A stretch of 64,000 nt of DNA. Source: Prochlorococcus sp. AG-402-I21 (lineage in GTDB: Bacteria > Cyanobacteriota > Cyanobacteriia > PCC-6307 > Cyanobiaceae). The position numbers and the translations under genes were made by a program. This document shows positions 1 through 18,440 of this stretch, in pieces; position 1 is the stretch's first letter, and every line of letters starts with the position of its first letter. The stretch is from the NCBI GenBank assembly GCA_003216955.1, contig QCHZ01000005.1, positions 1 through 64,000 of the forward strand. Direction: 5' to 3'. The notes beneath the pieces are model-generated. The model was given only the letters and a program-made list of their open reading frames with translations, made no database searches and had not been told where the DNA came from.

Positions 1-17
1 AGCACCTATAAGGTGCT
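1..17 (-). terminator. Ancestral tRNA-Phe terminator hairpin, now left of the element
   Basis: AGCACCT and AGGTGCT form a 7-bp stem around ATA. A near copy (AGCACC/GGTGCT) follows the intact tRNA-Phe at 6776-6793. The simplest reading is that this is the original chromosomal terminator of the tRNA, displaced by insertion. The U-run side lies beyond the window edge and cannot be checked. Confidence 0.55.
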
Positions 18-18
18 G

Positions 19-54
19 AATAATGGTGCCAGGACCCAGATTTGAACTGGGGAC
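19..54 (-). repeat. attL: 3' remnant of tRNA-Phe
   Basis: Positions 24-54 equal the 3' terminal 31 nt of tRNA-Phe including encoded CCA (minus strand), and 19-23 match its flank. Identity to 6796-6831 is complete over 36 bp and stops at 55 (G against A). The D-arm and anticodon arm are absent, so this is not a working tRNA. Confidence 0.92.
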
Positions 55-135
55 GTGGTAAAAAATAACGCAAAATAGGGCATATTTAGTATAGTAGTGA
101 TACAGAAAAACGCCAAATATAGAAGTTTTCTAAAA

Positions 136-158
136 ACTTACATACCACTTACATACCA
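136..158 (+). promoter_or_regulatory. Left arm-type site pair (two tandem ACTTACATACCA)
   Basis: Two copies of ACTTACATACCA, at 136-147 and 147-158, share one A. A 22-bp stretch (138-159) recurs exactly at 6626-6647 near the other end. Paired short repeats inside each end of an integrative element are typical arm sites bound by the N-terminal domain of a tyrosine integrase. That role is inferred. Confidence 0.65.
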
Positions 159-205
159 AGGTGCTATTCTGTGGACACCTGAGAGTTGGACTTTAATTAA
201 GTTCT

Positions 206-215
206 TGGTATGTAA
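206..215 (-). promoter_or_regulatory. Inverted arm-type site in front of the integrase start
   Basis: TGGTATGTAA is the reverse complement of the arm-site core TTACATACCA. It ends 5 bp before the integrase start codon and occupies the place of the ribosome-binding site; no Shine-Dalgarno sequence is visible there. Binding by the integrase could therefore limit its own expression. This is inference from position. Confidence 0.5.
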
Positions 216-220
216 TTCCT

Positions 221-1702
221 ATGCCAAAGAAGTTACCTGAGAAATGGATAAATGGCGAGAAAAAAACTTTGGATGTACTGGTTGATTTGGGTTTGAAATC
301 ACCCCGTCCAAGTTTGAAGGTTTATAAGAACGATAAAGCAAATACTAAAAACCTTTTTTGTAGGTGGTTGCCTGTTCTGGACGAGGAGATAAGAGATTTC
401 AAAGGAAAAAAACGCCTTCCTTATTACAAGTTGACTGGTTTTGATGATCCTTATGAGGCAGGTAAATTTGCTATTGGATGGTTAAAAGATCTACTTAAAC
501 AGATTGATAAGGAAAAAGAAGTACAAAAATATAATTCAAAAACCTCCTTAGAGCACTATTGGCATCAGTACTGGGAGAAGCAAGTTCGGATATTTAATAC
601 ACAAAGGAATGCACCACGAAGAATCAGAGATGAAAAGTTGAAGTGGCAAGGTGAGGTTTATGGGTTGGTTCACCAGAACTGGGCAAAGAAATCAGTTGAG
701 GACATTAATTTTGTAGATATGAGCAACTATTTTCTTTTATTAGACGAGAGAGGAAAGGAGAAAGATAAAGATATGGCAGGTACTAAGAAGCAGCAAAAAA
801 CCTTAATTAATAAACTTCTTAGTGAAGCAAGGGGAAGCGATTTCCCCAGTTTGCCTGATTTAGTTTTTCCAAAAATTACAACCAGAAAGAAAGATGCTGT
901 TGATTGGTTCTCTAAAACTGAATGGGATAAATTAATTGATTATGTGGTGCACCGATCTGGTGACTTCGCTAATAGAGATTTAACGAGAGATGAATATCTA
1001 AAGATTGATTGGACACACAGAAATAGATTTAACAATAAGAGAAATTGGATTGATTTATATGATGCTCTTTTGACCCAGTGGTTTTTCTATCTAAGACCAG
1101 AAGATATGCCCAGAATGAGAATGGAATGGTTCAGCATAGAAGAAGATTACAAATCTGAAAGTACAGGGAAAGTATCTCCCAGAGCAGTTCTTTATTTGGG
1201 TACAACTAAAGGTGATAGGGAAAAGGATGATAGTTACGCCTATAGACCAGAGCACTTAGAACACATACGGCGATTGATAAAAAGACGAGGAAAAAAAGGT
1301 TGGTGTTGGTTTGATTTTTACAACAGACCAAACAATGCCCCAAGTGAATCTCAAGTTTTAAACACCTTGAATGAAATGCTTAAAAAAGCAGTTAAAGAGT
1401 TGGGAATAGAGAAACGGAAAGTGAATTGGATGATGATTCGCCATACCGCTTTTGCTCTTACCGCTAATGAATTACCAATGCTGAGAGATAGGACGAAACT
1501 CCAAACCTTTGCTGAGAATGGTTTTACAGATATAAAAATGTTTGACGAAACCTATCTCAGAAAAACAGAAGCAAGCAAAGTGGCAGATCTAGCAAGTACC
1601 GCATTCGATGAAAAGAAAGAACCCAAATATGTTTTGAGAGATGTAACCAGTCCTTTAGATCGTTTTAATCAAATGATTAAAGATTCTCGTCCAGAACAAT
1701 GA
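221..1702 (+). CDS. Tyrosine recombinase (element integrase)
   Basis: A 493-residue protein whose C-terminal half fits the phage-integrase fold. Candidate catalytic residues are Arg292 in YLRPEDMP, Lys330 in GTTKGD, Arg407 in MIRHTAF and the nucleophile Tyr445 in FDETYLRK. The His usually found three residues before the second Arg is Met here, a departure from the textbook R-K-H-R-H-Y set. The N-terminal 200 residues are basic and could hold the arm-binding and core-binding domains. The gene lies directly inside attL and reads inward. It should integrate and excise the element at tRNA-Phe. ATG at 221 is the only good start; its stop overlaps the next small gene (ATGA). Family assignment is firm; activity is untested. 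Confidence 0.9.
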   Translation: MPKKLPEKWINGEKKTLDVLVDLGLKSPRPSLKVYKNDKANTKNLFCRWLPVLDEEIRDFKGKKRLPYYKLTGFDDPYEAGKFAIGWLKDLLKQIDKEKEVQKYNSKTSLEHYWHQYWEKQVRIFNTQRNAPRRIRDEKLKWQGEVYGLVHQNWAKKSVEDINFVDMSNYFLLLDERGKEKDKDMAGTKKQQKTLINKLLSEARGSDFPSLPDLVFPKITTRKKDAVDWFSKTEWDKLIDYVVHRSGDFANRDLTRDEYLKIDWTHRNRFNNKRNWIDLYDALLTQWFFYLRPEDMPRMRMEWFSIEEDYKSESTGKVSPRAVLYLGTTKGDREKDDSYAYRPEHLEHIRRLIKRRGKKGWCWFDFYNRPNNAPSESQVLNTLNEMLKKAVKELGIEKRKVNWMMIRHTAFALTANELPMLRDRTKLQTFAENGFTDIKMFDETYLRKTEASKVADLASTAFDEKKEPKYVLRDVTSPLDRFNQMIKDSRPEQ

Positions 1703-1872
1703 AAATCTATGTTGAGTGGTGTGATCAGTTCAATCGTTGGGTGAGATATGGTTACTATCACAATGATTTGACCGCTTATACAGTTGCCAATTCAAGGGCA
1801 AAATCTACAGGTAAACGCCACAGATTGATTACTGAAAATCGTTCTTTATTAGACATTATTGAACCTAATTAG
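1699..1872 (+). CDS. Small protein translationally coupled to the integrase (57 aa)
   Basis: The start codon overlaps the integrase stop in an ATGA arrangement, so the two are probably translated together. The predicted product begins MKIYVEWCDQFNRWVRYGYY and is rich in aromatic and basic residues. I do not recognise a family. Small basic partners of integrases can act as excisionases or directionality factors, but nothing beyond size and position supports that here. Confidence 0.5.
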   Translation: MKIYVEWCDQFNRWVRYGYYHNDLTAYTVANSRAKSTGKRHRLITENRSLLDIIEPN

Positions 1873-1954
1873 AATGCATTTCCTTATGTTGCGAAAGGGG
1901 ATGTAAATTTCCTGTTTAATGCCTAATTTGTTTATAAGAAAAGACCACTGATTG

Positions 1955-3454
1955 ATGACGATTGCTATTAATACTGAAACCAATGTTAGAGATATTCCAA
2001 TTGCTGATGTTCAAATTAGGTTCAGGTTAAGGACACCAAAAGAGGAAAAGGTAAGAGAACTTGCTGAAAGTATCAAAACACTTGGACTATTAAATCCAAT
2101 CACAATTGATAATCAAAATTTTTTAGTTTGTGGTTACCACCGTTTATCTGCTTATAAATTGCTTGGTTATGAAACCATTCCAGCAATAACCAAAGACTAT
2201 TCATTGGTCTATTCAGAGTTAGGAGAAATTGACGAGAATCTCAAGGTATCTTCTTTATCAAAGATTGAAATAGCAGAGCATATTGTTAGACGAGAAGAAT
2301 TGTATTCAGAATTAGGAATGAGATTGGAAAGAGGTATTAGTTCTAAAGAAGGTTTTATATCTACAGATCAATTGGCATCAGAATCTGGGATATCAAATAG
2401 AGCATATAGATTGAAACGGCAACCTGCACGCATAGTTGAAGATGTAAGAGATCAATTAAGAGATACAAAATTTGCTGAAGTACTTATGGATATGGTGAAA
2501 CTTTCTCAGCAAACACCAGAAATTCAAAGATCAATTTGTAAGTTGCTTATAAGTGGAAAACGCACAACTTTTAAAAAAGCATTGGTTGACGCTCAGATAT
2601 TAGATTATCGAAAAAATAAAGATTATAAGTTTGACTTCAACCTGAAAGAAAGATGGGGAAGAATACCAAATAGCATAATGAGGTTCTCAAAAGCGAATAG
2701 TAAAATACAAAAATTATGTGATGTTATTCACCACGACGAAGATATTCAATGGTTGAAAAGAGAAGGAATTAATTTTGGTGGAAGTAAGATTCCTGTTTAT
2801 CAAATGGCAGCAGAACACGCTGAATTCCTAATAACTTATTACACACCTGAAAACGGAATAGTTCTGGACTCATTTATGGGTAGAGCAACTATAGGTACTG
2901 CTGCTTTGGTGCATGGCAGAAAATTTGTTGGGTTTGATATTACAAAGAAATTTGTTGATAAAACTAGGAATGTATTTGATACTGAATTCAATAAAGATGA
3001 TTTTCAATTAATTAATAACGATAGTATTTTATTGGAAGAATTCAAAGACTATAAAGATCACTTTGATGCTGTTTGTTTTGATCCTCCATATGTAAAAGCA
3101 GAGAGGTATTCAGACAATGAAAAGGACCTTTCAAATATGACTAGTGAAGAGTATATGTTGAAAATGCGGGAACACTTTAAACAGTTATATCGTCTAATAA
3201 AAAAATCAGATTATAAACAAAAGAAATTCTTTCCTGTTATCTGTAAGGTGGGTACAGTTCGTGATGCTAGTAAGGGTATATTTGATATGGATAGTGAATT
3301 CCAATCAGCAGCAAAAGAGGCAGGGTTTGTCCTCTGGGATAAGGTATTTAATGAACTCTATAATATATGGGGTGGAGTGGGTTATGAGCGAAATTATGAA
3401 AACAAATATGTTCAGAAATCACACGAAACTAACTTGGTATTCTGTAAGTTTTAG
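1955..3454 (+). CDS. ParB-like nuclease domain fused to an adenine/cytosine-N4 DNA methyltransferase
   Basis: About 499 residues in two parts. The N-terminal 85 residues resemble the ParB/sulfiredoxin fold: IPIADVQIRFRLRTP, then LGLLNPITI and the box VCGYHRLSAYKLLGY. A middle region (about 100-270) includes a segment like a helix-turn-helix (STDQLASESGISNRAY). The C-terminal part is a class-I methyltransferase with a SAM-binding motif near 305-315 (DSFMGRATIG), an acidic residue in FVGFDI and the catalytic DPPY at about 376-379, typical of N6-adenine or N4-cytosine enzymes. Such fusions occur in phages and mobile elements, where they may modify element DNA or mark origins. No restriction enzyme is adjacent. 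ATG at 1955 is preferred; an in-frame TTG sits at 1952. Confidence 0.82.
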   Translation: MTIAINTETNVRDIPIADVQIRFRLRTPKEEKVRELAESIKTLGLLNPITIDNQNFLVCGYHRLSAYKLLGYETIPAITKDYSLVYSELGEIDENLKVSSLSKIEIAEHIVRREELYSELGMRLERGISSKEGFISTDQLASESGISNRAYRLKRQPARIVEDVRDQLRDTKFAEVLMDMVKLSQQTPEIQRSICKLLISGKRTTFKKALVDAQILDYRKNKDYKFDFNLKERWGRIPNSIMRFSKANSKIQKLCDVIHHDEDIQWLKREGINFGGSKIPVYQMAAEHAEFLITYYTPENGIVLDSFMGRATIGTAALVHGRKFVGFDITKKFVDKTRNVFDTEFNKDDFQLINNDSILLEEFKDYKDHFDAVCFDPPYVKAERYSDNEKDLSNMTSEEYMLKMREHFKQLYRLIKKSDYKQKKFFPVICKVGTVRDASKGIFDMDSEFQSAAKEAGFVLWDKVFNELYNIWGGVGYERNYENKYVQKSHETNLVFCKF

Positions 3455-3467
3455 TGGACTAATTGTG

Positions 3468-3496
3468 TTGACAAAATAATAATTAAGATGTATAAT
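3468..3496 (+). promoter_or_regulatory. Full-consensus sigma-70 promoter
   Basis: TTGACA (3468-3473) and TATAAT (3491-3496) are separated by exactly 17 bp, a perfect match to the housekeeping consensus. Such matches are rare among native promoters. It lies just after the methyltransferase gene and points at the five-gene operon beginning at 3851, leaving a leader of roughly 345 nt. Confidence 0.75.
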
Positions 3497-3850
3497 GCTT
3501 TTTGAGTTAATCTATCAGATTCAATATTAAATTACTCTTTTAACCCTTTAAATATATTGGATATAATATTAGGATTCAATATGATATTGGTTTTAAATTA
3601 ATTATAAATTAAATTTAAATATACATCCTTTTATCATATTGAGCGAGCGTTCTATAAGGAAAAGTTAAAAGACCACCAACCAAGATATTGAAATTGATAA
3701 ATAATTCATATTGCTAGCGATATGGGATTTATGCGTGTGGTGCCCCATATTACTTTCAATAGTTAGTATAGGATTAGTGTATCTATTTCTAAGAGATAAA
3801 TTACTAATTAACTATAAGTTCTTCAGTAAAGACCAATTGAGTAAAACAGG
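3497..3850 (+). other. Long AT-rich leader or possible replication/regulatory region
   Basis: About 350 nt with no convincing reading frame. It holds repeated AATATTA/ATATTGG-like words (3570-3600) and a hairpin in which ATATGGG (about 3719-3725) can pair with CCCATAT (about 3743-3750) across a loop containing GCGTGTGG. It could be an untranslated leader, a small RNA, or an origin with iteron-like repeats. The sequence alone does not decide. Confidence 0.35.
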
Positions 3851-4522
3851 ATGTTATCTAATTGTATTAAGTACGCTGAGAAAGTAGAAGAGAGTAAACA
3901 AGTAGGACGAGTTAAGAACCTCTTAGCAAATCAAGCAACTGAGTTTATTCCTACTTACTATGCTGTTCTTTATTATGGCAAATCTTATGAGGGTAAATTA
4001 TTAAAACCTAGTGAGTATAGAAAGAGGTGGAATAGACAAGAAGTTCTTAAGACCCACAACTTCATTAGTAATAAATTAAGAAAGTGTTTTGGTGATATTC
4101 ACTTCCAATGGTTTCTAAATCGCCATAGCGAATATAAGGACGAAGAAGGGAATTCTAAGCGTGGTTCTTTTCATTCAGATTTATACATTAGTGAAATATC
4201 TAATGATGCTATTCAGCAACCTTCTAATGCTCTATTAGATCTAATGCTTTATGCACGCCAAAGAGGTACCTCAATAAATATTGAAAAGATAGGAATTGAG
4301 AAAGCAAAAATTCTTCTATTGGAAATGTGTATTAGGCAAGCGAAATGGGTAGGTGTCCACAAGAACTCACTATTCATTGAAGAAGTTCCAATAGAAGAGT
4401 TTCACCAAACTTTCCATTATGGAATGAAAGATATATGCGAAATGGATGATTTCAATTCAATTGTTGATTGGAAAAACAGTTCATTTTATAGACCAACTTC
4501 AACTACAAACGGAGAAAATTAA
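3851..4522 (+). CDS. Unknown element protein, possibly replication-initiator-like (223 aa)
   Basis: First gene of an operon behind the strong promoter at 3468-3496. The protein is mixed in charge and lacks a signal peptide or membrane segment. The stretch NFISNKLRKCFGDIHFQWFLNRHSEY... with GSFHSDLYIS downstream recalls the layout of some plasmid Rep proteins (basic helix, then hydrophobic strand with His, then GxxHxxLxI), but a true HUH motif is not present. I cannot name the family. It ends directly before the next ATG (TAA then ATG, no gap), which indicates tight coupling. Confidence 0.6.
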   Translation: MLSNCIKYAEKVEESKQVGRVKNLLANQATEFIPTYYAVLYYGKSYEGKLLKPSEYRKRWNRQEVLKTHNFISNKLRKCFGDIHFQWFLNRHSEYKDEEGNSKRGSFHSDLYISEISNDAIQQPSNALLDLMLYARQRGTSINIEKIGIEKAKILLLEMCIRQAKWVGVHKNSLFIEEVPIEEFHQTFHYGMKDICEMDDFNSIVDWKNSSFYRPTSTTNGEN

Positions 4523-4729
4523 ATGAGTACTGCTAAAGGTATTTACATAAATGTATCAAGGAGAAATGAGGATATACCTGAGTTGATTGAGGAGTTTTCT
4601 GAAACTCTAAACAGATCTAAAGCAGATACTGTTTCTGAAATTCTTCGTCTATATCCCAAACTCATTACTTACAAAAAGAAGTGTGAGAAATATGAGCAGC
4701 ATTTTGAAAAAATGGGGGTTCTCTACTAA
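4523..4729 (+). CDS. Small protein, possibly ribbon-helix-helix-like (68 aa)
   Basis: Begins immediately after the stop of the upstream gene and overlaps the next start by one base (TAATG). The order is a short beta-like N-terminus (GIYINVSRR), a helix (DIPELIEEFSETL) and a second helix (KADTVSEILRLYPKL), which would suit a ribbon-helix-helix regulator. That is a guess from predicted pattern only. In this position a regulator of the operon or of element copy number would make sense. Confidence 0.5.
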   Translation: MSTAKGIYINVSRRNEDIPELIEEFSETLNRSKADTVSEILRLYPKLITYKKKCEKYEQHFEKMGVLY

Positions 4730-5037
4730 TGGACTACGAAAAGAATAAAACCTCCTATCAGGACGAGGAGTGGTTTGAGAGAGAGCAAAGAAATGTGCTT
4801 GATGTTCGTAATTGGAACCGTGACTTGATAGGACAAACCTTTTATCAAACCTGTAGGGATAACAAAAACAAATACAGAACTATTCAATTCAAATGGAACC
4901 CATTTGTTGAATCACTTAAACCAATGATTTCAAATCCGATTGATGGTTCTCCACCAGATGGAATGAAACCTGTACCTGCTGGTGCATTACAGCGAGCAGC
5001 ACAAATGACAAATATGACTATGTTCAACCAGCGTTAA
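4729..5037 (+). CDS. Unknown element protein (102 aa)
   Basis: Start codon overlaps the previous stop (TAATG). The product is hydrophilic, rich in Asn, Asp and Arg, with an aromatic N-terminal half (NWNRDLIGQTFYQTC) and a Pro/Gly-rich C-terminal half (PIDGSPPDGMKPVPAG). No membrane segment or known motif is visible. Placement in the coupled operon suggests a role shared with its neighbours. Confidence 0.5.
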   Translation: MDYEKNKTSYQDEEWFEREQRNVLDVRNWNRDLIGQTFYQTCRDNKNKYRTIQFKWNPFVESLKPMISNPIDGSPPDGMKPVPAGALQRAAQMTNMTMFNQR

Positions 5038-5046
5038 GAGGAAACT

Positions 5047-5169
5047 ATGACTATTAATCTGGACGCAGTAACTGCGGAAATGCTTAAAGCAATTATGAAA
5101 AAGGAAGGTAAATATGATGGTAAAAAATATCTACAAGACAAAATCAAACAAATTTATATGGCACTTTAA
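5047..5169 (+). CDS. Micro-protein in the element operon (40 aa)
   Basis: A 40-codon frame preceded by a clear ribosome-binding site (AGAGGA, about 5 nt before the ATG). It fills the gap between the genes ending at 5037 and starting at 5172. The product (MTINLDAVTAEMLKAIMKK then a Lys-rich helix) is mostly helical and basic. Function is unknown; the good ribosome-binding site and spacing argue that it is translated. Confidence 0.5.
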   Translation: MTINLDAVTAEMLKAIMKKEGKYDGKKYLQDKIKQIYMAL

Positions 5170-5171
5170 AT

Positions 5172-5531
5172 ATGAAAGAAGAAGCATACTCAAGGATAAT
5201 TGAGTTGATGGACGAGCAAGAGAAGGACGATGAAATCAATAACCCCTTAGATCATTTCACTGAAGAACAAATAGATAATCGGTTAGAAAAATTGAATGTA
5301 ATTCAGGCAGTACTTGAAAAGGATATTGCTGATTACTCAATAGATAAAACAATGGAACTTCTTCAACTTGAAGAAGAGAAGGATATCTACCGAGTAATGC
5401 TTTTCAGTAAAGGACTAGATCAATATCTGGTTGTGTTTACCTCTGATGCTCAGATATCTGCTTATGACCTGAATACGCCTAATGATTTGTTGGCAAGGTG
5501 CTTCAATGCCACTGCTTCACTTGTTAGTTAG
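5172..5531 (+). CDS. Unknown acidic element protein (119 aa)
   Basis: Last gene of the operon, starting 2 nt after the previous stop. The N-terminal two thirds are strongly acidic and helical (MDEQEKDDEINN, then TEEQIDNRLEKLNVIQAVLEKDI), compatible with a coiled coil. The C-terminus is more hydrophobic (QYLVVFTSDAQISAYDL). Acidic small proteins in phages and satellites often bind or mimic nucleic-acid-binding partners, but there is no specific evidence here. Confidence 0.5.
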   Translation: MKEEAYSRIIELMDEQEKDDEINNPLDHFTEEQIDNRLEKLNVIQAVLEKDIADYSIDKTMELLQLEEEKDIYRVMLFSKGLDQYLVVFTSDAQISAYDLNTPNDLLARCFNATASLVS

Positions 5532-5752
5532 TGATTAGGCAGTACCCCCGTATATAAAAAGGGTAGGTTCATTAATCTATAAAGTGTTACCCAAGCGAAT
5601 GAAAAAATACATCCAATTTGAATTTTTTTTTCGTCCAAAATAACCCCTAAAAAGGTTGAATAAATAAAGGTAGGATTAGTCCTATTTTTTGTTATCAATC
5701 TCAGTAATTAATTTGCTTACTGATTTCTTATCTTGTTGATCTACCAATGGAC

Positions 5753-5790
5753 AACCCCTCAGCACTTGGCGTACTGAGGGGTTTTCTTTG
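5753..5790 (+). terminator. Rho-independent terminator of the element operon
   Basis: AACCCCTCAG (5753-5762) pairs with CTGAGGGGTT (5774-5783), a 10-bp stem with an 11-nt loop, followed by a T-rich tract. It closes plus-strand transcription about 220 nt after the last operon gene and faces the minus-strand serine recombinase. The rest of 5532-5856 has a weaker hairpin near 5543-5563 and no gene that I can support. Confidence 0.8.
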
Positions 5791-5812
5791 TATCTAATTT
5801 TCAAACAGGAAA

Positions 5813-5836
5813 TTCCCTTCCTGTTTAACCTCATGC
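5813..5836. repeat. Inverted repeat just downstream of the serine recombinase gene
   Basis: AAACAGGAA (5813-5821) and TTCCTGTTT (5828-5836) form a 9-bp perfect inverted repeat with a 6-nt loop, without a clear U-tract. The right half plus two bases (TTCCTGTTTAA) also occurs at 1909-1919 before the methyltransferase gene, so it may be a protein-binding word rather than a terminator. Confidence 0.4.
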
Positions 5837-5856
5837 ATTCCTGTGATGCCCAAAAC

Positions 5857-6402
5857 TCATTTTTTATTTTTCAATAATCTATAAACACTTCCTCTATGGA
5901 TATTCATTTGTTTAGCAATAGCAGTTGCTCCTAGTCCTTCTTCCTTTAGTTTCTTTACTTGATCAATATCAATATCTGCTTTACGCCCTTTGTACTTGCC
6001 TTCATTTTTTGCTTTGGCAATGCCACTTAACTGCCTTTCTTTTCTTAGTGAATTCTCTAATTCAGCAAAGACACCCAACATATCCAAAAAGCATTTAGAA
6101 GTAGCATCCTTTGTTGATATCGGTTGATCAGTAGCAGTAAGAACAACTCCTTTATCTGTTAGTTCTTTGACTATGAGTTGAAGATCCAAAGTATTCCTAG
6201 CAATGCGATCAATTCGGGTAAAACAAAATTGATCTTTATCTCTTACGAACTCAAGGCAAGCACGAAGTTGATCTCGTCCTTCAGTTGATGTACCGCTTAC
6301 CTTTTCTTGGAAGATCTTTTCACAACCAATATTTTTTAGTGCTTCAAGTTGAACCTCTAATGATTGCCCTGAAGAACTAACTCTTGCGTAACCCACTTTC
6401 AT
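5857..6402 (-). CDS. Serine recombinase (resolvase/invertase family)
   Basis: The product starts MKVGYARVSSSGQS, with the nucleophilic Ser at about residue 9, followed by conserved blocks for the resolvase catalytic domain (FTRIDRIARNTLDL, ATDQPISTKDATSK, LGVFAELENSLRKERQ). A C-terminal helix-turn-helix ends it (GLGATAIAKQMNIHRGSVYRLL). The length of 181 residues fits small resolvases and invertases. I chose the start at 6402 because the family begins at this Met. An in-frame start at 6480 would add 26 unrelated residues over a zone of operator-like repeats. It may resolve multimers, invert a segment or be a second mobility enzyme. No invertible segment is evident. Confidence 0.88.
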   Translation of the reverse strand: MKVGYARVSSSGQSLEVQLEALKNIGCEKIFQEKVSGTSTEGRDQLRACLEFVRDKDQFCFTRIDRIARNTLDLQLIVKELTDKGVVLTATDQPISTKDATSKCFLDMLGVFAELENSLRKERQLSGIAKAKNEGKYKGRKADIDIDQVKKLKEEGLGATAIAKQMNIHRGSVYRLLKNKK

Positions 6403-6408
6403 TTTTTC

Positions 6409-6466
6409 TGGACACCTGTAAAGTGTTCTTTTTAAGTTATAGAGATCATAGCAACAAGTGTTCTTT
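6409..6466 (-). promoter_or_regulatory. Cluster of G(G/A)ACAC / GTGTTC half-sites before the serine recombinase
   Basis: GGACAC (from 6410) and GTGTTC (from 6424) form an imperfect 20-bp palindrome just upstream of the chosen start. AAGTGTTCTT recurs 35 bp away (6421-6430 and 6456-6465), and an inverted GAACAC lies at 6548-6553. TGGACACCTG is shared exactly with 172-181 in front of the integrase gene. This looks like a common operator or a resolvase site for both recombinase genes. Function is inferred. Confidence 0.45.
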
Positions 6467-6576
6467 AATTCAATACCCATTTAAAAAAGACATATTTTTA
6501 CTTGTTTTGGATGGGTGGTTTTTGTTCCTCATAGGTGTACTCAAATAGAACACTCTCTCTCTTTGACTGCTACTAC

Positions 6577-6646
6577 TGGTATGTAAGTTATGGGTGCTTA
6601 ATGGACGAGTAAATTGGATGTACTTTTACATACCACTTACATACCA
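6577..6646. promoter_or_regulatory. Right arm-type sites (one inverted, two direct)
   Basis: TGGTATGTAAGT (6577-6588) is an inverted copy and TTACATACCA (6626-6635) plus ACTTACATACCA (6635-6646) are direct copies of the word found at 136-158 and 206-215. Three copies at each end, within about 200 bp of the att cores, match the architecture of integrase arm sites. The interval 6403-6775 has no gene that I can support. Confidence 0.65.
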
Positions 6647-6769
6647 ATTTTACTCCTCTCAGAATCGCTTATAACGCCCCGAAATTACTGCCAATCCTAA
6701 CTCTTAAGAATCCTTCTAAGGCATTGCTATGACTGATGCTAGAGGGATCTTAGGTTTAATTTAGGGTAT

Positions 6770-6793
6770 TAAAAAAGCACCCTTTCAGGTGCT
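6770..6793 (-). terminator. Terminator of tRNA-Phe (element-supplied copy)
   Basis: AGCACC (6776-6781) pairs with GGTGCT (6788-6793); on the minus strand the stem is followed by a run of Ts (A-run at 6771-6776). It directly follows the tRNA 3' end. Because it lies inside attR it should have arrived with the element, replacing the displaced hairpin at 1-17. Confidence 0.75.
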
Positions 6794-6800
6794 TTAATAA

Positions 6801-6876
6801 TGGTGCCAGGACCCAGATTTGAACTGGGGACACGGCGATTTTCAGTCGCCTGCTCTACCAACTGAGCTATCCCGGC
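6801..6876 (-). tRNA. tRNA-Phe (anticodon GAA), integration target
   Basis: Complete cloverleaf on the minus strand: acceptor GCCGGGA with TCCTGGC, D-arm AGCTCAGTTGGTAGAGC, anticodon loop CTGAAAA, T-arm GTTCAAATC and an encoded CCA. Its 3' 31 nt form the right attachment site, so the mature RNA is a junction of chromosomal 5' and element-derived 3' sequence, with function preserved. Confidence 0.97.
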
Positions 6877-6970
6877 TTTAACCCTAGTAATCTACCAATT
6901 AGGAAGTACCTTATTGAAAAATAACTTGAAATCTCCTTAATTTCCTTTTTGTCCAATTGCAAAGCAAATT

Positions 6971-7240
6971 TCATGACTCAGGAATAGATTTAATCATCCT
7001 AACCAATGTTTTATGTGCATCTGAACAGTCTTGAAGAATATGATCAAATTTTATTTCTAATGTATGGTCATCAATTTTAAGCTGAATAGATTCTGGAGAT
7101 AAGCTGATCATTTTCGCTGATTTGAAAGTTTTAATTTTTCCATAAAATTTTGCATATGCATTTACAGCATCCTCATGGTCTTTGTTCATGTGATTACATA
7201 TTCTTGTACTTGATTCTTGGTTGATTGGCTCGGAAGTCAT
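6971..7240 (-). CDS. DUF2470 domain protein (89 aa)
   Basis: Contains the hallmark CNHMNKDHEDAVNAYAKFYG near residues 15-34, the core of DUF2470, which forms the C-terminal part of HugZ-like haem utilisation proteins and also occurs alone in cyanobacteria and plastids. At 89 residues this is the stand-alone form. The conserved His residues could contact haem or a related ligand; this is known for relatives only. It is the first gene on the chromosomal side of the element and shares its strand with the kinase gene at 7339, which lies about 100 bp downstream. No signal peptide is seen, so it should be cytosolic. Confidence 0.8.
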   Translation of the reverse strand: MTSEPINQESSTRICNHMNKDHEDAVNAYAKFYGKIKTFKSAKMISLSPESIQLKIDDHTLEIKFDHILQDCSDAHKTLVRMIKSIPES

Positions 7241-7338
7241 AAAATTTGTCTTAATAGTGAATTTAGAAATTATTTAATAATTTAGTTGGAATTTAAGAAA
7301 TTTAGATTAAAAATTTTTTAAAGAATTTAGTACTTTCT

Positions 7339-8574
7339 TTATAATAATCCCTGCAAAGCAATACTTGCTACTCCTGCAGCGGGGGGTCTATTGCATATTT
7401 TTATTGGTATACCGATTTCTCTTTCTCTAATCTTTTTCCAAGTTATATTTTTTGCACCTCCACCAACAGTAATTATTTGCTTAGGTAAATCAGCTCCTAA
7501 TTCATTAAGCTTTTGCCAGCCTCTTGCTTCTATTTTTGCCAAGCCTTCAAGTAATGCATGAAGATAAAGAGAATCGCTTACTGGTCTTGGCCCAAGTTTA
7601 GGTTGTAAATTGGGATCATCTATTGGAAATCTTTCTCCTTTACTTGAGAAGGGAAGAAGATTTAATCCCGTTGACTTGTTAGGATTTATTTGTTTGCTTA
7701 ATTCTTCAATATATTCAGGATTAAAGAATTCTAGTAGTATTGCAGCACCTGCATTAGATGCTCCTCCAGATAGCCAATTACCTAATAGTTTATGATTCGA
7801 GATACCTTCTCCTGAAAGGCTATTATTAACAAACTTCTTAATCACTATTGTACTGCCCAGGATTGTTATCCCATCATCTTTATTAGGGAAAGTTGCTAAA
7901 ACACCAGCATTAGAATCTGTCGTTCCTGCTATTACTTGAAGATTTTTTGGTAGACATAATTCATGGGCTTTTTTAGTACATATCTTTCCCATTATTTGAC
8001 CTGAAGGAATTATTTTAGGAAGGCATTTTAACCACTTCAAATTTTTAAAATTTTCTGGCCATGAACGATTTGATATTTCCCAACCCATCCTAATATTGTT
8101 ACCTTCTTCACCAAACTCCCAATTATTGATAAGCCATCCACTAATCCAATCTGCCTGGTGCCTTAAGATTATTTCATTACCATATAAGGTTAAAAGTCTT
8201 AGTGCTCTTCCTACACTTCCACTGATGGTTGATCCTGCACATCCTTTTTTAAATAGTTTTTTAATCTCATATGAATATTCAGGAAAGGATAAGAAATAAG
8301 GTAAAGCTTTTCCTATCGGTTCTCCATTTTTTTTGCATGCTAAAAGTGTTCCAGATGTCCCCGCGACAGAACAGGAAACCAATTTTTCTTTTAGATTTTT
8401 TGGAATTTCTTTTATTAGAGTTTTGAGACTATTTATCCAGTCTTCAGATATCTCAAGACCTTCAGAGTATGTTTTTGATGATGTGAATAATATTTTTTTT
8501 TTAGTATTAATGATTGCAATTCTTACACCGGATGTACCAAGATCAATACCAAGTACAAGAGAATTGTTTAACAT
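7339..8574 (-). CDS. FGGY-family carbohydrate kinase
   Basis: 411 residues with the ATPase fold of sugar kinases: phosphate-1 loop GIDLGTSGVRIAI (9-21), the acidic GTTDSNAGVL segment near 218 and the adenosine motif GGGAKN in the C-terminal domain. FGGY kinases phosphorylate sugars such as xylulose, ribulose or glycerol. It is shorter than bacterial xylulokinases (about 480-500), as are the cyanobacterial and plant XK-1 type proteins, some of which act on D-ribulose. The substrate cannot be read from the sequence. It ends about 100 bp before the DUF2470 gene and starts 18 bp after the metK stop, so it probably shares a transcript with metK. Confidence 0.83.
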   Translation of the reverse strand: MLNNSLVLGIDLGTSGVRIAIINTKKKILFTSSKTYSEGLEISEDWINSLKTLIKEIPKNLKEKLVSCSVAGTSGTLLACKKNGEPIGKALPYFLSFPEYSYEIKKLFKKGCAGSTISGSVGRALRLLTLYGNEIILRHQADWISGWLINNWEFGEEGNNIRMGWEISNRSWPENFKNLKWLKCLPKIIPSGQIMGKICTKKAHELCLPKNLQVIAGTTDSNAGVLATFPNKDDGITILGSTIVIKKFVNNSLSGEGISNHKLLGNWLSGGASNAGAAILLEFFNPEYIEELSKQINPNKSTGLNLLPFSSKGERFPIDDPNLQPKLGPRPVSDSLYLHALLEGLAKIEARGWQKLNELGADLPKQIITVGGGAKNITWKKIREREIGIPIKICNRPPAAGVASIALQGLL

Positions 8575-8592
8575 TTTTTGATTGAAATCTTT

Positions 8593-9822
8593 TTATATAA
8601 TCAAACTTAATTCTTTTGCTTTTTCAGATACATCTTCCCATGGAAGAGCAATATCAGTTCTTCCAAAGTGACCATAGGCTGCAATATCTCTATAAAAACG
8701 TCCTCCTCTTAACCTAGGAAGTTCTTGCAGGTTAAAAGATTTCATAATTGCGCCTGGCCTTAAATCAAAGTGTTCTTGAACAATTTGAGTTAGTGCATCA
8801 TCTGAAACTCTACCCGTTCCATAAGACTCAACAAGTATTGATACTGGTTTGGCTACACCAATTGCATAACTTAGTTGGACTTCAACTTTTTTTGCAAGAT
8901 TTGCTGCAACCAAAGCCTTCGCGACAAATCTTGCTGCATAAGCTGCTGAACGATCAACTTTCGTAGGATCCTTCCCCGAAAAAGCCCCACCCCCATGGCG
9001 AGCATATCCACCATATGTGTCTACAATTATTTTTCTACCTGTGAGACCAGCATCTCCTTGAGGCCCACCAATGACAAATTTCCCTGTTGGATTTACTAGA
9101 AAACGTGTAGTTTCTATTGAAGGTTTTAAAGCAAGATCCTCTGTGGCTGGCTGAACAACTAATTTCCATAGGTCTTTTGCAATTCTTTTTTGGATTTCAT
9201 CCTCAAGAGTTATTCCATCGACTTCTGATTTGTGCTGAGTAGAAATCAGGATTGTATCTATGGAGCACGGTATTCCGTTTTCGTATGAGACACTTACTTG
9301 GGTTTTTCCATCAGGTAAAAGATAATCAATTAATTTTTGATGCCTAACTAATGCCAACTGTCTTGCTAAACGGTGAGCGAGACTAATTGGCAATGGCATC
9401 AGTTCAGGAGTCTCGTCACAAGCAAAACCAAACATAATTCCTTGATCACCAGCACCAACTTGATCTAATGGATCTGTTGAATGATCATCAGCTTCATCTA
9501 CTCCTTGAGCAATATCTGCAGACTGTTGATCAAGTGCAACTAAGACTGCGCAACTGTTCGCATCAAATCCACCAGCACTTGCACTTTCATAGCCAATGCT
9601 TTTAATGACTTCTCTAACAAGCTTATTGAAATCAACCTCCGCTTCAGAAGTTATTTCTCCAGTTATTAGGCACAAGCCAGTATTGACTACTGCCTCACAT
9701 GCAACCCTACTTGTTGGATCTTCAGTTAAGAGAGCATCTAAAACAGCATCACTTATTTGATCGCAAATTTTATCAGGATGTCCTTCTGTTACCGATTCAG
9801 AGGTGAAAACGTATCTACTCAT
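8593..9822 (-). CDS. metK: S-adenosylmethionine synthetase
   Basis: 409 residues, the normal length. Makes S-adenosylmethionine from methionine and ATP, the methyl donor used by several enzymes in this window (PrmC, CobI, and the element methyltransferase). Signatures are [10 protein letters not shown] (13-22) with the ATP-binding His15, [10 protein letters not shown] (123-132) and [16 protein letters not shown], the P-loop-like signature. It is a cytosolic homotetramer in known cases. It lies between the HAD phosphatase gene (24 bp upstream) and the FGGY kinase gene on the same strand, forming a compact minus-strand cluster. Confidence 0.97.
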
Positions 9823-17251: not shown

Positions 17252-17599
17252 TTAAGAGTTTTGGTCTGTACCTGCAGTTTGTTGAGAATTTTCTTCTGAC
17301 TCATTCTTAGGCTCTTTAAGTTTGATTTGACCAGTCATAGTTCTTTTTATTGGTAGGTTTGCAACTAATGCAGTCATGCGATCTTCTGTCTCAAGACTTA
17401 CTGCACCTTCATCGACATCTATTTCTACATACTTTGCTACCACTTCAAGTATTTCTTTTCTCATTTGATCTAAAAGCTCTGTACTGAGATCTGATCGGTC
17501 ATGAGCTAACACAAGTTGTAATCTCTCTCTCGCAGTGCTAGCACTAGCAGGCTGTCTACGAAGTAACTTGTTGATAATGTCTCTAAGTGTCATTGCCAT
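17252..17599 (-). CDS. minE: Cell-division topological specificity factor MinE
   Basis: 115 residues. The core runs from [40 protein letters not shown] (anti-MinCD helix and start of the topological domain) to VANLPIKR. MinE displaces MinD from the membrane and drives the oscillation or gradient that places the division site. The C-terminal 25 residues after PIKRT are polar and go beyond the minimal E. coli form. It starts 4 bp after the minD stop; the order minC-minD-minE on one strand is canonical. Confidence 0.95.
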
Positions 17600-17603
17600 T
17601 GTT

Positions 17604-18440
17604 TTAGAAAATTTTTGTTTGCATTAGCCTTCTAAATTTCGCACCCAAGCCCGAACTCTCCTCTGCGGGATCAATAAGCGGAATATCCTCTCCTTGTAAC
17701 CTCTTGGCAATATTTAGATAACATTTAGCTGCTGGGGAATTAAGGCTATTTAAAGTTAGTGGCTCTCCTCTGTTTGTACTGACAATTACCTGCTCATCCT
17801 CTAGCACAAGGCCAAGTAAAGGTAAGGCTAAAATATCAGTCACATCATCGATAGAAAGCATTTCTTGGTTTGCCATCATCTTTGGCCTAACTCTATTGAG
17901 AACTAACTGGACTGGTTTAATAGAATTTGTATTAAGCAATCCAATTACTCTGTCTGCATCTCTTACTGCTGATACCTCAGGATTGGTAACTACTATTGCT
18001 TCTTGAGAGGCTGCCATAGCATTCTTAAATCCATCTTCAACTCCAGCAGGACAGTCAATTAAAACATAATTGAACTGTTCTTTTAACATCTCAACTATGC
18101 GCTTCATATCATCCGGCTTTAACCAATCAAGCATTCTTGGATTTCCAGCAGGAAGTAAAGATAGATTGGATTCTTGCTTGTGCTTCACTAAGGCCTGATC
18201 AAGTCTGCATTCCTCCTCAAGAACTTCTTGTGCCGTATAAACAATTCGATTTTCAAGACCTAATAATAAATCCAAATTTCTAAGACCGAAGTCTGCGTCT
18301 AAAACAGCAGTGGTTAAACCCTGTCTCGCAAGTGAAATGCCAAGATTTGCTGTGAGGGTTGTCTTGCCGACACCACCCTTCCCTGAGCAAATAAGAATGA
18401 CACGGGTATCTGTCGCCACGGACCTCCTTGGATTCGACAA
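17604..18440 (-). CDS. minD: Septum-site-determining protein MinD
   Basis: 278 residues. A deviant Walker A motif, [10 protein letters not shown] (19-28), followed by [15 protein letters not shown] and the switch region [16 protein letters not shown], marks the ParA/MinD ATPases. The C-terminal [13 protein letters not shown] can form the membrane-targeting amphipathic helix. ATP-bound MinD dimerises on the membrane and recruits MinC to block FtsZ assembly away from midcell. It lies between minC and minE. Confidence 0.97.

Follow-up and report, generated by a model that had tools for sequence, protein, structure and literature searches.

We propose that the element inserted at the tRNA-Phe gene of Prochlorococcus sp. 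AG-402-I21 is an integrative plasmid-like member of the picocyanobacterial tRNA-Phe/tRNA-Cys family of Flamholz, Biller and Kelly 2023 (PMC10187409)—a reading to which we assign a probability of roughly two in three, and under which the element would be excised by its integrase, replicate by a rolling-circle mechanism and have its multimers resolved by a serine recombinase. The ends, both recombinases, the layout of the arm sites, empty sites and relatives with the same layout are present in the DNA compared here, and from them we infer the activity. The window, i.e., the whole 64,000-nucleotide stretch of DNA analysed, contains the following features:

1..18, no strand: terminator-like hairpin (AGCACC..GGTGCT); many tRNA-Phe loci that bear an insertion have a hairpin of this type beside them
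19..54, no strand: left att repeat, 36 bp (direct-repeat family D1; T-arm repeats in relatives)
138..157, plus strand: pair of arm-type sites, TTACATACC, starting at 138 and 149 with a period of 11 (repeat search)
207..215, minus strand: inverted arm-type site, left end (repeat search)
221..1702, plus strand: tyrosine integrase, 493 aa (conserved catalytic residues and fold match)
1699..1872, plus strand: conserved small protein, 57 aa; its start overlaps the integrase stop, and it recurs in the integrase-element family
1955..3454, plus strand: ParB_N/N6-N4 DNA methyltransferase fusion (Pfam), with homologues in two other Rep-bearing loci
3851..4522, plus strand: putative HUH rolling-circle Rep, 223 aa, with H108-S-D110 and Y190-G-M-K193 (motif conservation, profile comparison)
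4523..4729, plus strand: 68-aa protein directly after rep, ribbon-helix-helix-like by pattern
4729..5037, plus strand: conserved 102-aa protein of the rep operon
5047..5169, plus strand: 40-aa protein, ribbon-helix-helix-like by pattern
5172..5531, plus strand: conserved 119-aa protein, last gene of the operon
5857..6402, minus strand: small serine recombinase, Resolvase plus HTH_7 (Pfam, PHROGs)
6403..6554, no strand: res-like region, in which AGAACACT half sites lie at -27 and -62, with an inverted one at -152, counted from the recombinase ATG; suggestive only
6578..6586, minus strand: inverted arm-type site, right end (repeat search)
6626..6645, plus strand: pair of arm-type sites, right end, starting at 6626 and 6637 (repeat search)
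6796..6831, no strand: right att repeat, inside the 3' end of the tRNA (repeat D1 and ARAGORN tRNA call)
6801..6876, minus strand: intact tRNA-Phe (gaa) (ARAGORN)

The two copies of D1 are identical at 36 of 36 positions with a spacing of 6777, and the sole tRNA-Phe found by ARAGORN has its 3' end within the right copy. Positions 1-9000 hold 31 families of direct repeats; among the 20 shown, the other 19 are shorter than D1, and all of these are imperfect except D4 (22 bp), which represents the arm sites. The att pair is not a product of chance, because a T-arm copy lies upstream of the integrase gene in 19 of the 22 integrase places with a tRNA-Phe or tRNA-Cys in range, the window counted—in all 15 of one set (two at 89-90% identity) and in four of seven further places. 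The three misses (L146, L148 and L149) all have partial integrases only; the repeats of L138, L140 and L142 and the repeat ahead of the integrase in L141 were found by a tolerant search and not by exact matching. In the proposed mechanism, the integrase would recombine tRNA-Phe, at its T-arm/3' end, with the circular element, which would restore the 3' end of the tRNA and perhaps bring its own terminator hairpin. Since the contig (G000:C5) begins at window base 1, the left chromosomal flank is unassembled and integration is directly visible on the tRNA side only; the flank was also sought in the same genome with sister DNA and a linker-like flank protein, which gave no match, so that it is unassembled, absent or too divergent. 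The hairpin at 1-18 suggests another element end or a scar to the left. At the tRNA, a hairpin of this type accompanies eight of the 11 connected loci with insertions (it is absent in G006, G020 and G027) and also two of the ten empty loci (G019 and G022), and we rejected it as a mark of the element because the separation is not clean.

The comparison with sister genomes on which the original prediction made itself depend bears it out. Among 21 sister loci reaching the conserved left neighbour, ten are empty: only 0.8-1.3 kb separates that neighbour from tRNA-Phe, and a second copy of the repeat was not found. The other 11 hold 2.0-11.9 kb of varied genes. For comparative purposes, 14 delimited elements with both ends in view were used, the window's own included; L112, L113, L117, L122, L125, L126, L073 and L074, whose ends are not both visible, lie outside this set, as does L128, a remnant of 1.65 kb whose integrase is truncated. 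The perfect 36-bp repeats, intact tRNA-Phe, tyrosine and serine recombinases and ParB/methyltransferase fusion reported at the outset are all present (repeat, ARAGORN and Pfam searches), with nine supported ORFs in place of the eleven genes then counted.

We further identified six putative integrase arm-type sites, which to judge by the repeat searches follow one layout at both ends in 13 of the 14 delimited elements. The sequence TTACATACC occurs six times in the 64-kb window, always at the element ends, with 0.29 occurrences expected; in each of the 13 elements, none of 200 shuffles gave an equally good layout. The distances between inverted site and pair are narrow partly by imposition, because the search was limited to 55-80 bp on the left and 38-60 bp on the right; the left inverted site of L116 sits at that limit (80), and the fit of L120 is weak (9 mismatches). 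L127, with a truncated integrase, gave no arm-site solution and is nonetheless counted among the 14. The integrase would be expected to bind arm sites of 9 bp, three to either side of the core.

The integrase itself has no match in Pfam and a single unnamed one in PHROGs (E 0.09). R292, K330, R407, H408 and Y445 are invariant in all 16 aligned integrases. The AlphaFold model, built from 13 sequences (pLDDT 84.5), matches tyrosine recombinases, namely XerH in Foldseek (E 5.1e-5) and, by VIA, an S. aureus integrase (Z 15.8) and the Tn1549 integrase (Z 15.4). Two features count against the preferred reading: the His of HxxR is missing in 16 of 16 integrases, and the second-His position, occupied by His in most members, is Phe in the window. 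This Phe would suit a decaying remnant that is locked between its repeats and can no longer move, as would the scars common at the locus (second partial tRNA copies in 8 of 33 loci) and the rep fragments widespread in the genus. We consider such a remnant quite unlikely, given nine uninterrupted ORFs, perfect 36-bp repeats and six identical arm sites, and given that L114 and L115 (Met) and L123 (Asn) equally lack the second His in full-length integrases. Of 300 family genomes sampled, 34 contain relatives of the integrase, its own genome counted, and all 20 loci found in a collection of 84,980 species carry picocyanobacterial titles (pattern-based scan); none appeared in the IMG/VR scans or in 50,697 phage records.

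Across ~6.8 kb we recognised no cargo or nutrient genes, which upholds the earlier description of a small tRNA-targeting tyrosine-recombinase element without recognisable cargo. Five of the nine ORFs carry no annotation in Pfam or PHROGs. The 57-aa protein might, as a guess, be a directionality factor. The fusion protein matches ParB_N (E 1.6e-7) and N6_N4_Mtase (E 9e-15) in Pfam; among 50,697 phage records, 24 contain distant relatives of it, and IMG/VR yielded a distant match (L129). Its methyltransferase is the only protein of the element recognised by PADLOC, and the fusion may mark the DNA of the element or aid its maintenance. These phage relatives, the small size, the tRNA site, the unannotated operon genes and the first sighting of the integrase family in an ocean-virome protein cluster (according to passages of PMC10187409) would all accord with a phage satellite, PICI-like or packaged in virions, whose operon hijacks or interferes with a cyanophage. 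We regard this as very unlikely and dropped the satellite assignment of the original prediction, because no terminase, capsid or packaging family was recognised in any ORF (Pfam, PHROGs) and because no viral relatives turned up, whether for integrase and Rep in the IMG/VR scans or, among the phage records, for the integrase and a relative of Rep; the anti-phage families found by PADLOC likewise stop at the methyltransferase. With five ORFs unannotated, the missing packaging genes amount to an absence of recognisable genes, and the phage-record relatives of the fusion, together with the virome sighting, leave some room for packaging. Of the roles once offered for the operon, replication remains the best reading, whereas packaging and interference found no support in these searches.

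The serine recombinase (Resolvase, E 2.1e-36; HTH_7, E 3.9e-6) probably starts at ATG 6402 and not at 6480, judging from the likeness of its N-terminus to relatives. It would resolve multimers at the res-like region ahead of its own gene. Both recombinases occur together in 12 of the 14 delimited elements, the window counted, and the pairing is already in print (PMC10187409, in the passages concerned); for these reasons we no longer call two such enzymes in 6.8 kb unusual. An invertase or second integrase would agree with the best PHROG, 'DNA invertase' (phrog_125, E 3.5e-58), except that PHROG names cannot tell invertases from resolvases. No crossover-site-like pair bounding a segment was seen by eye among the 25 longest of 56 inverted repeats, and half sites are repeated just upstream of the gene in the style of a resolvase site, which makes a role other than resolvase unlikely.

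Motif conservation and profile comparison single out the 223-aa protein as a candidate HUH rolling-circle Rep. YxxK—the putative catalytic Tyr, with a Lys at the third position after it, on the C-terminal side of motif 2—is present in 11 of 11 members, which are not 11 independent cases, because L180 entered at E 0.0058 and L144 and L177 are near-identical; motif 2 reads HxH in four of the 11, HxN in four, GxH in two and HxD in the window copy. The alignment omits fragments and a copy interrupted by an in-frame stop (L176, L179, L181-L183), and set A5 excludes L140, L141 and L144, L141 having a stop codon. A second Rep family (F4) has HxH, with the motifs HTH[FL]HL and YNLKD, and hhalign relates it to the window type with a probability of 82 and a score of 43.3, the best of 30 column-shuffled controls scoring 23.9. 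Against the preferred reading, the window copy shows HxD in place of HxH, a four-sequence profile left the two families unlinked (probability 4.7), and searches of Pfam, PHROG and PDB gave no credible match to a known Rep; for both families the PDB profile matches were weak and to unrelated proteins. A single-sequence structure model was uninformative (pLDDT 40). The intergenic stretch 3440-3850 likewise speaks against it, with no significant fold (z -0.99), and the 411 bp upstream of rep contain no hairpin with arms of at least 8 bp. By eye, a GTGTGGTG-like stretch recurs upstream of some reps. Separately, a primase was considered in place of an HUH Rep for elements lacking the latter and was rejected, their zinc-finger ORFs giving a weak CHC2 match only (L119, E 0.021, below the cut-off).

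After excision, this candidate Rep would nick the circle and start rolling-circle replication, with the small proteins downstream as possible copy control; Pfam gave no confirmation of the ribbon-helix-helix patterns in the 68-aa and 40-aa proteins. The HUH signature is common to Reps and relaxases, and the route of transfer between cells is otherwise unexplained, so that an integrative and mobilizable element riding on a conjugative plasmid, with the HUH protein as relaxase, was also weighed. In Reps the HUH motif lies ahead of the Tyr, unlike in relaxases, and H108 here precedes Y190; moreover, Pfam recognised no mobilisation family, and two Rep-family members tested against 72,556 plasmids had no relatives there, leaving the relaxase reading highly improbable. 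Returning to rolling-circle replication, a Rep of either type was found in only six of the 14 delimited elements, so the Rep is not universal in the element family. We found the window-type Rep elsewhere alongside phage-type integrases, and similar small genes follow rep in other elements too. A TPR gene follows rep in 23 of 23 other places examined in the genus (places, not loci, with G035:C60, G033:C46:188, G012:C10 and G038:C31 outside the count) and is absent behind the window rep.

We hold as an evenly poised proposal that rolling-circle plasmids able to integrate, with an HUH Rep not recognised before, form a family in picocyanobacteria. A single replication cassette (Rep, small regulators and sometimes ParB/methyltransferase) would be swapped between integrases of several classes and between several sites (tRNA-Phe/Cys, tRNA-Ser and a spot between two similar genes), and cargo, e.g., expanded TPR genes, would enter a fixed slot behind rep. 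The candidate Rep ties the tRNA-Phe/Cys elements to elements of the same hosts with different integrases, a matter of relevance to gene gain and swapping in streamlined ocean cyanobacteria.

Among known systems, the pSAM2-type elements of actinomycetes are integrating rolling-circle plasmids, with a tyrosine integrase acting on a tRNA and an HUH Rep acting on the circle. The window element appears analogous in its tRNA integration by a tyrosine integrase and its putative HUH Rep; it differs in having no recognised transfer gene, an extra serine recombinase and a Rep outside the family libraries searched. VEIMEs and PICIs are integrative elements of small size that carry a tyrosine recombinase. 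The window element resembles them in these respects, but no packaging or interference genes were recognised in it, and passages of PMC10187409 set its integrase family apart from VEIME integrases. Tycheposons (via passages of PMC10187409 and PMC10872708) are likewise bordered by tRNAs, seven of which are described, carry a tyrosine recombinase and occur in picocyanobacteria; unlike them, the window copy has no recognised cargo, and we withdrew the tycheposon membership proposed originally because the published text treats the integrase family as distinct. By contrast, the window integrase has the traits of the family in PMC10187409, as far as its passages describe them: no usual domain matches, a tyrosine-recombinase fold, restriction to picocyanobacteria, a tRNA-Phe or tRNA-Cys 3' of the integrase, variable gene content and, often nearby, a small serine recombinase. 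Those passages give the mobilisation mechanism as not yet known and are silent on att ends, arm sites, a replication gene and the position of cargo. To a family hitherto known from its integrase, our analysis adds a candidate Rep, exact ends, an arm-site layout and a putative cargo slot.

We place the probability that the tRNA-Phe insertion belongs to an integrating type of rolling-circle element at about two in three. The original prediction of perfect att repeats, an intact tRNA and, between the repeats, a tyrosine recombinase, a serine recombinase and a ParB/methyltransferase fusion was borne out on each of these points, and its count of eleven genes came down to nine supported ORFs:

19-54, left repeat, 36 bp, perfect match to the copy at 6796-6831
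221-1702, tyrosine integrase, supported ORF
1699-1872, 57-aa protein, supported ORF
1955-3454, ParB/methyltransferase, Pfam match
3851-5531, rightward, operon encoding five proteins of 223, 68, 102, 40 and 119 aa
ending at 5857, leftward, small serine recombinase, Pfam match
6796-6831, right repeat, 36 bp, perfect match to the copy at 19-54
6801-6876, minus strand, intact tRNA-Phe(gaa)

The ParB/methyltransferase and the serine recombinase are the only two of the nine ORFs with Pfam matches, and PADLOC recognised the methyltransferase and no other anti-phage family on the element. The contig (G000:C5) begins at window base 1, and the DNA left of the element lies outside it.

The right-flank DNA found matches in 35 of 41 genus genomes, 34 of which (the window's own included) span the tRNA side—the remaining one, in G032, being 36 bases located elsewhere. 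Of the 33 sister tRNA-Phe loci compared, 21 have a conserved 76-aa neighbour within the contig. Ten of these 21 are empty, with a neighbour-to-tRNA gap of 0.8-1.3 kb and no second repeat found (G007, G030, G037, G014, G003, G015, G001, G011, G022 and G019), and the other 11 are occupied, with gaps of 2.0-11.9 kb and varied gene content. The insertion is not fixed in all relatives, and fixation was the outcome that the original prediction had named as speaking against it; the site is a hotspot rather than a fixed feature. Scars, in the form of a partial second tRNA copy adjoining the tRNA, occur at 8 of the 33 loci (G023, G002, G008, G013, G004, G031, G021 and G035). The sisters' left flank, which presumably encodes phycoerythrin-cluster proteins, was not found in the window's genome when searched with sister DNA and a linker-like flank protein.

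Across the 33 sister genomes, a hairpin-type 3' flank tends to accompany insertions and may persist as a scar. The hairpin (AGCACC..GGTGCT) follows tRNA-Phe at 14 of the 33 loci, with a similar one at 2 more and another flank sequence at 17. It is absent from 8 of the 10 empty loci and present at 2, and loci with insertions carry it in 8 of 11 cases and lack it in 3. In G021 (locus L062), the tRNA carries the hairpin flank and the left scar copy the second kind, as expected if the hairpin is element-borne. Window bases 1-18 form a hairpin of the same type, so the left repeat may abut the end of an older element; such tandem build-up would rest on these 18 bases and on the imperfect correlation between hairpins and insertions, which, not being clean, slightly lowers our confidence in the overall model.

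The 9-bp arm-type site TTACATACC occurs six times in the 64 kb, always at the two element ends (0.29 copies expected; six copies in 0 of 100 shuffles). One end reads core, a direct site pair 11 bp apart and, 67-69 bp away from this pair, an inverted site; the other reads inverted site, 46-50 bp, a direct pair 11 bp apart and core. The same layout recurs in 13 of the 14 integrase-family elements with both ends in view (window included; 6.1-10.7 kb), each with its own 9-mer (TTACCTACC, TCACCTTCC, TTTCCTACC and others), and mismatch totals were 0-9 versus a best of 12-17 among 200 shuffles per element. The inverted-site distances are partly imposed by the search ranges of 55-80 bp (left) and 38-60 bp (right). 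L120 has the weakest layout, and the left inverted site of L116 (80) is off-register.

Relatives of the integrase were found in 6 of the 41 genomes of the genus and in 34 of 300 sampled from the family (own genome in both), and none in phage records or IMG/VR. A pattern-based scan of 84,980 genomes, one per species, returned 20 loci, all with picocyanobacterial titles (Prochlorococcus, Synechococcus, Vulcanococcus). A T-arm copy of the tRNA lies upstream of int at 19 of the 22 integrase places that have a tRNA-Phe or tRNA-Cys within range—all 15 scored from a first set of 23 loci, 8 of which had neither tRNA in range, and 4 of 7 further ones; the three exceptions hold partial integrases. All 16 aligned sequences share R292, K330, R407, H408 and Y445, and none of the 16 has the usual His of HxxR; the second His position is Phe in the window, Met in L114 and L115, Asn in L123 and His in the others. 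An AlphaFold model from 13 sequences (pLDDT 84.5, pTM 0.52) retrieved tyrosine recombinases with Foldseek (best XerH, E 5.1e-5, TM-scores 0.33/0.43), and VIA aligned 196 of its residues with the S. aureus integrase 3nkh (Z 15.8, rmsd 4.1) and 283 with the Tn1549 integrase (Z 15.4, rmsd 7.0). In a 20-row tree, the window's integrase pairs with Prochlorococcus W8 (97/97). A serine recombinase is present in 12 of the 14 delimited elements and absent from L109 and L127. As for cargo in relatives, related integrases in L074 (G036, 2477-8470), L118, L120 and L121 adjoin genes that by eye resemble a type I restriction system, and genes for GSCFA, sulfotransferase and TPR proteins; in L122, two different serine recombinase matches (7261-7815 and 17549-18130) flank the integrase.

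The 223-aa protein is a candidate HUH rolling-circle Rep, judging from its motifs. In rolling-circle Reps, the HUH motif precedes the catalytic Tyr. All 11 full-length members, window included, carry YxxK (Y190, K193), and motif 2 reads HxH in 4, HxN in 4, HxD in 1 (the window) and GxH in 2; some members are mutually close, and L180 matches weakly (E 0.0058). Matches occur in 16 of 300 family genomes, or 25 of 400 with a profile (own included). Other elements have, in the corresponding position, a second family with HTH[FL]HL and YNLKD motifs, and profile comparison aligned both families with motifs in register (probability 82, score 43.3, against 23.9 for the best of 30 column-shuffled controls); an earlier four-sequence profile had given a probability of 4.7. 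The libraries searched held no credible match to Rep, a single-sequence structure model failed and was uninformative, and either Rep type occurs in only 6 of the 14 delimited elements. By eye, a GTGTGGTG-like stretch, a possible nick site, lies at about 3715-3760 and also precedes rep in L200, L204, L205 and L207. In L124, L112, L115, L119 and L073, no HUH protein was found and small zinc-finger-like ORFs occur instead, one of which weakly matches the primase-type CHC2 family (E 0.021); these are perhaps a second replication module.

Rep also occurs with other integrases. L144 (Prochlorococcus AG-670-O13), with an integrase of the same family as the window's, keeps the window's order of int, Rep, two small genes and a leftward serine recombinase, its tRNA end falling beyond the contig. 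The window-type integrase had no match in eight other Rep loci (L200-L207), all of which contain a Phage_integrase-like gene (PF00589, E 2.3e-14 to 0.002; 4 of 8 above the Pfam cut-off). L202 sits at tRNA-Ser with an 18-bp repeat, and L205 lies near tRNA-Ser, with no repeat found; L200, L201 and L203 are each flanked by a pair of similar large genes that we take to be flavodiiron genes, the left one in L201 being cut by the contig start. Serine recombinases recur in L202, L204 and L206, and ParB/methyltransferase homologues in L200 and L206 (33% over 504 aa and 35% over 449 aa).

Behind rep, all 23 other copies or 3' fragments examined in the genus (20 + 3; four more listed places fall outside this count) have a same-strand TPR match 42-255 bp downstream; for a random point, with about 45 genes in 1.9 Mb, we estimate the chance of one within 250 bp at well under 1%. 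This one expanded TPR family gave 3-46 leader matches per genome in seven genomes (26 in the window's own), with a partly composite query and counts that mean "at least" in two of the seven. L208, whose rep contains an in-frame stop, and L209, with the 3' part of rep, both have the TPR gene placed after rep and before the 68-aa gene; the window has no TPR gene there, its 68-aa gene (from 4523) directly following rep (to 4522). The window order looks ancestral, since other lineages (L144, L200, L203, L205) likewise lack a TPR gene there. The rep fragments preceding TPR genes are mostly C-terminal (L208-L211, L044, L058, L162-L169, L179-L199). Our guess is that the rep/TPR cassette multiplied by capture or one-ended rolling-circle events.

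From the observed ends, layout, homologies and empty sites, we infer a cycle in which the element would be excised from the tRNA-Phe site and then replicate. Resolution would fall to the serine recombinase at a res-like region, with half sites AGAACACT at -27 and -62 and inverted at -152, noted with no control; comparable repeats precede the serine recombinase genes of two relatives. As for transfer, the element might conceivably be packaged in particles, a route kept in play by 24 phage records with distant relatives of the methyltransferase fusion and by the first sighting of the integrase family in a virome cluster, according to the passages of PMC10187409 (Flamholz, Biller and Kelly) at hand.

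Those passages describe new integrases that differ from the ones of tycheposons and VEIMEs, state that the mobilisation mechanism is not yet known, and contain no description of the arm-site layout. The window element is a further member of this published kind, matched by described traits rather than by sequence: both share an association with tRNA-Phe or tRNA-Cys and a frequent small serine recombinase.
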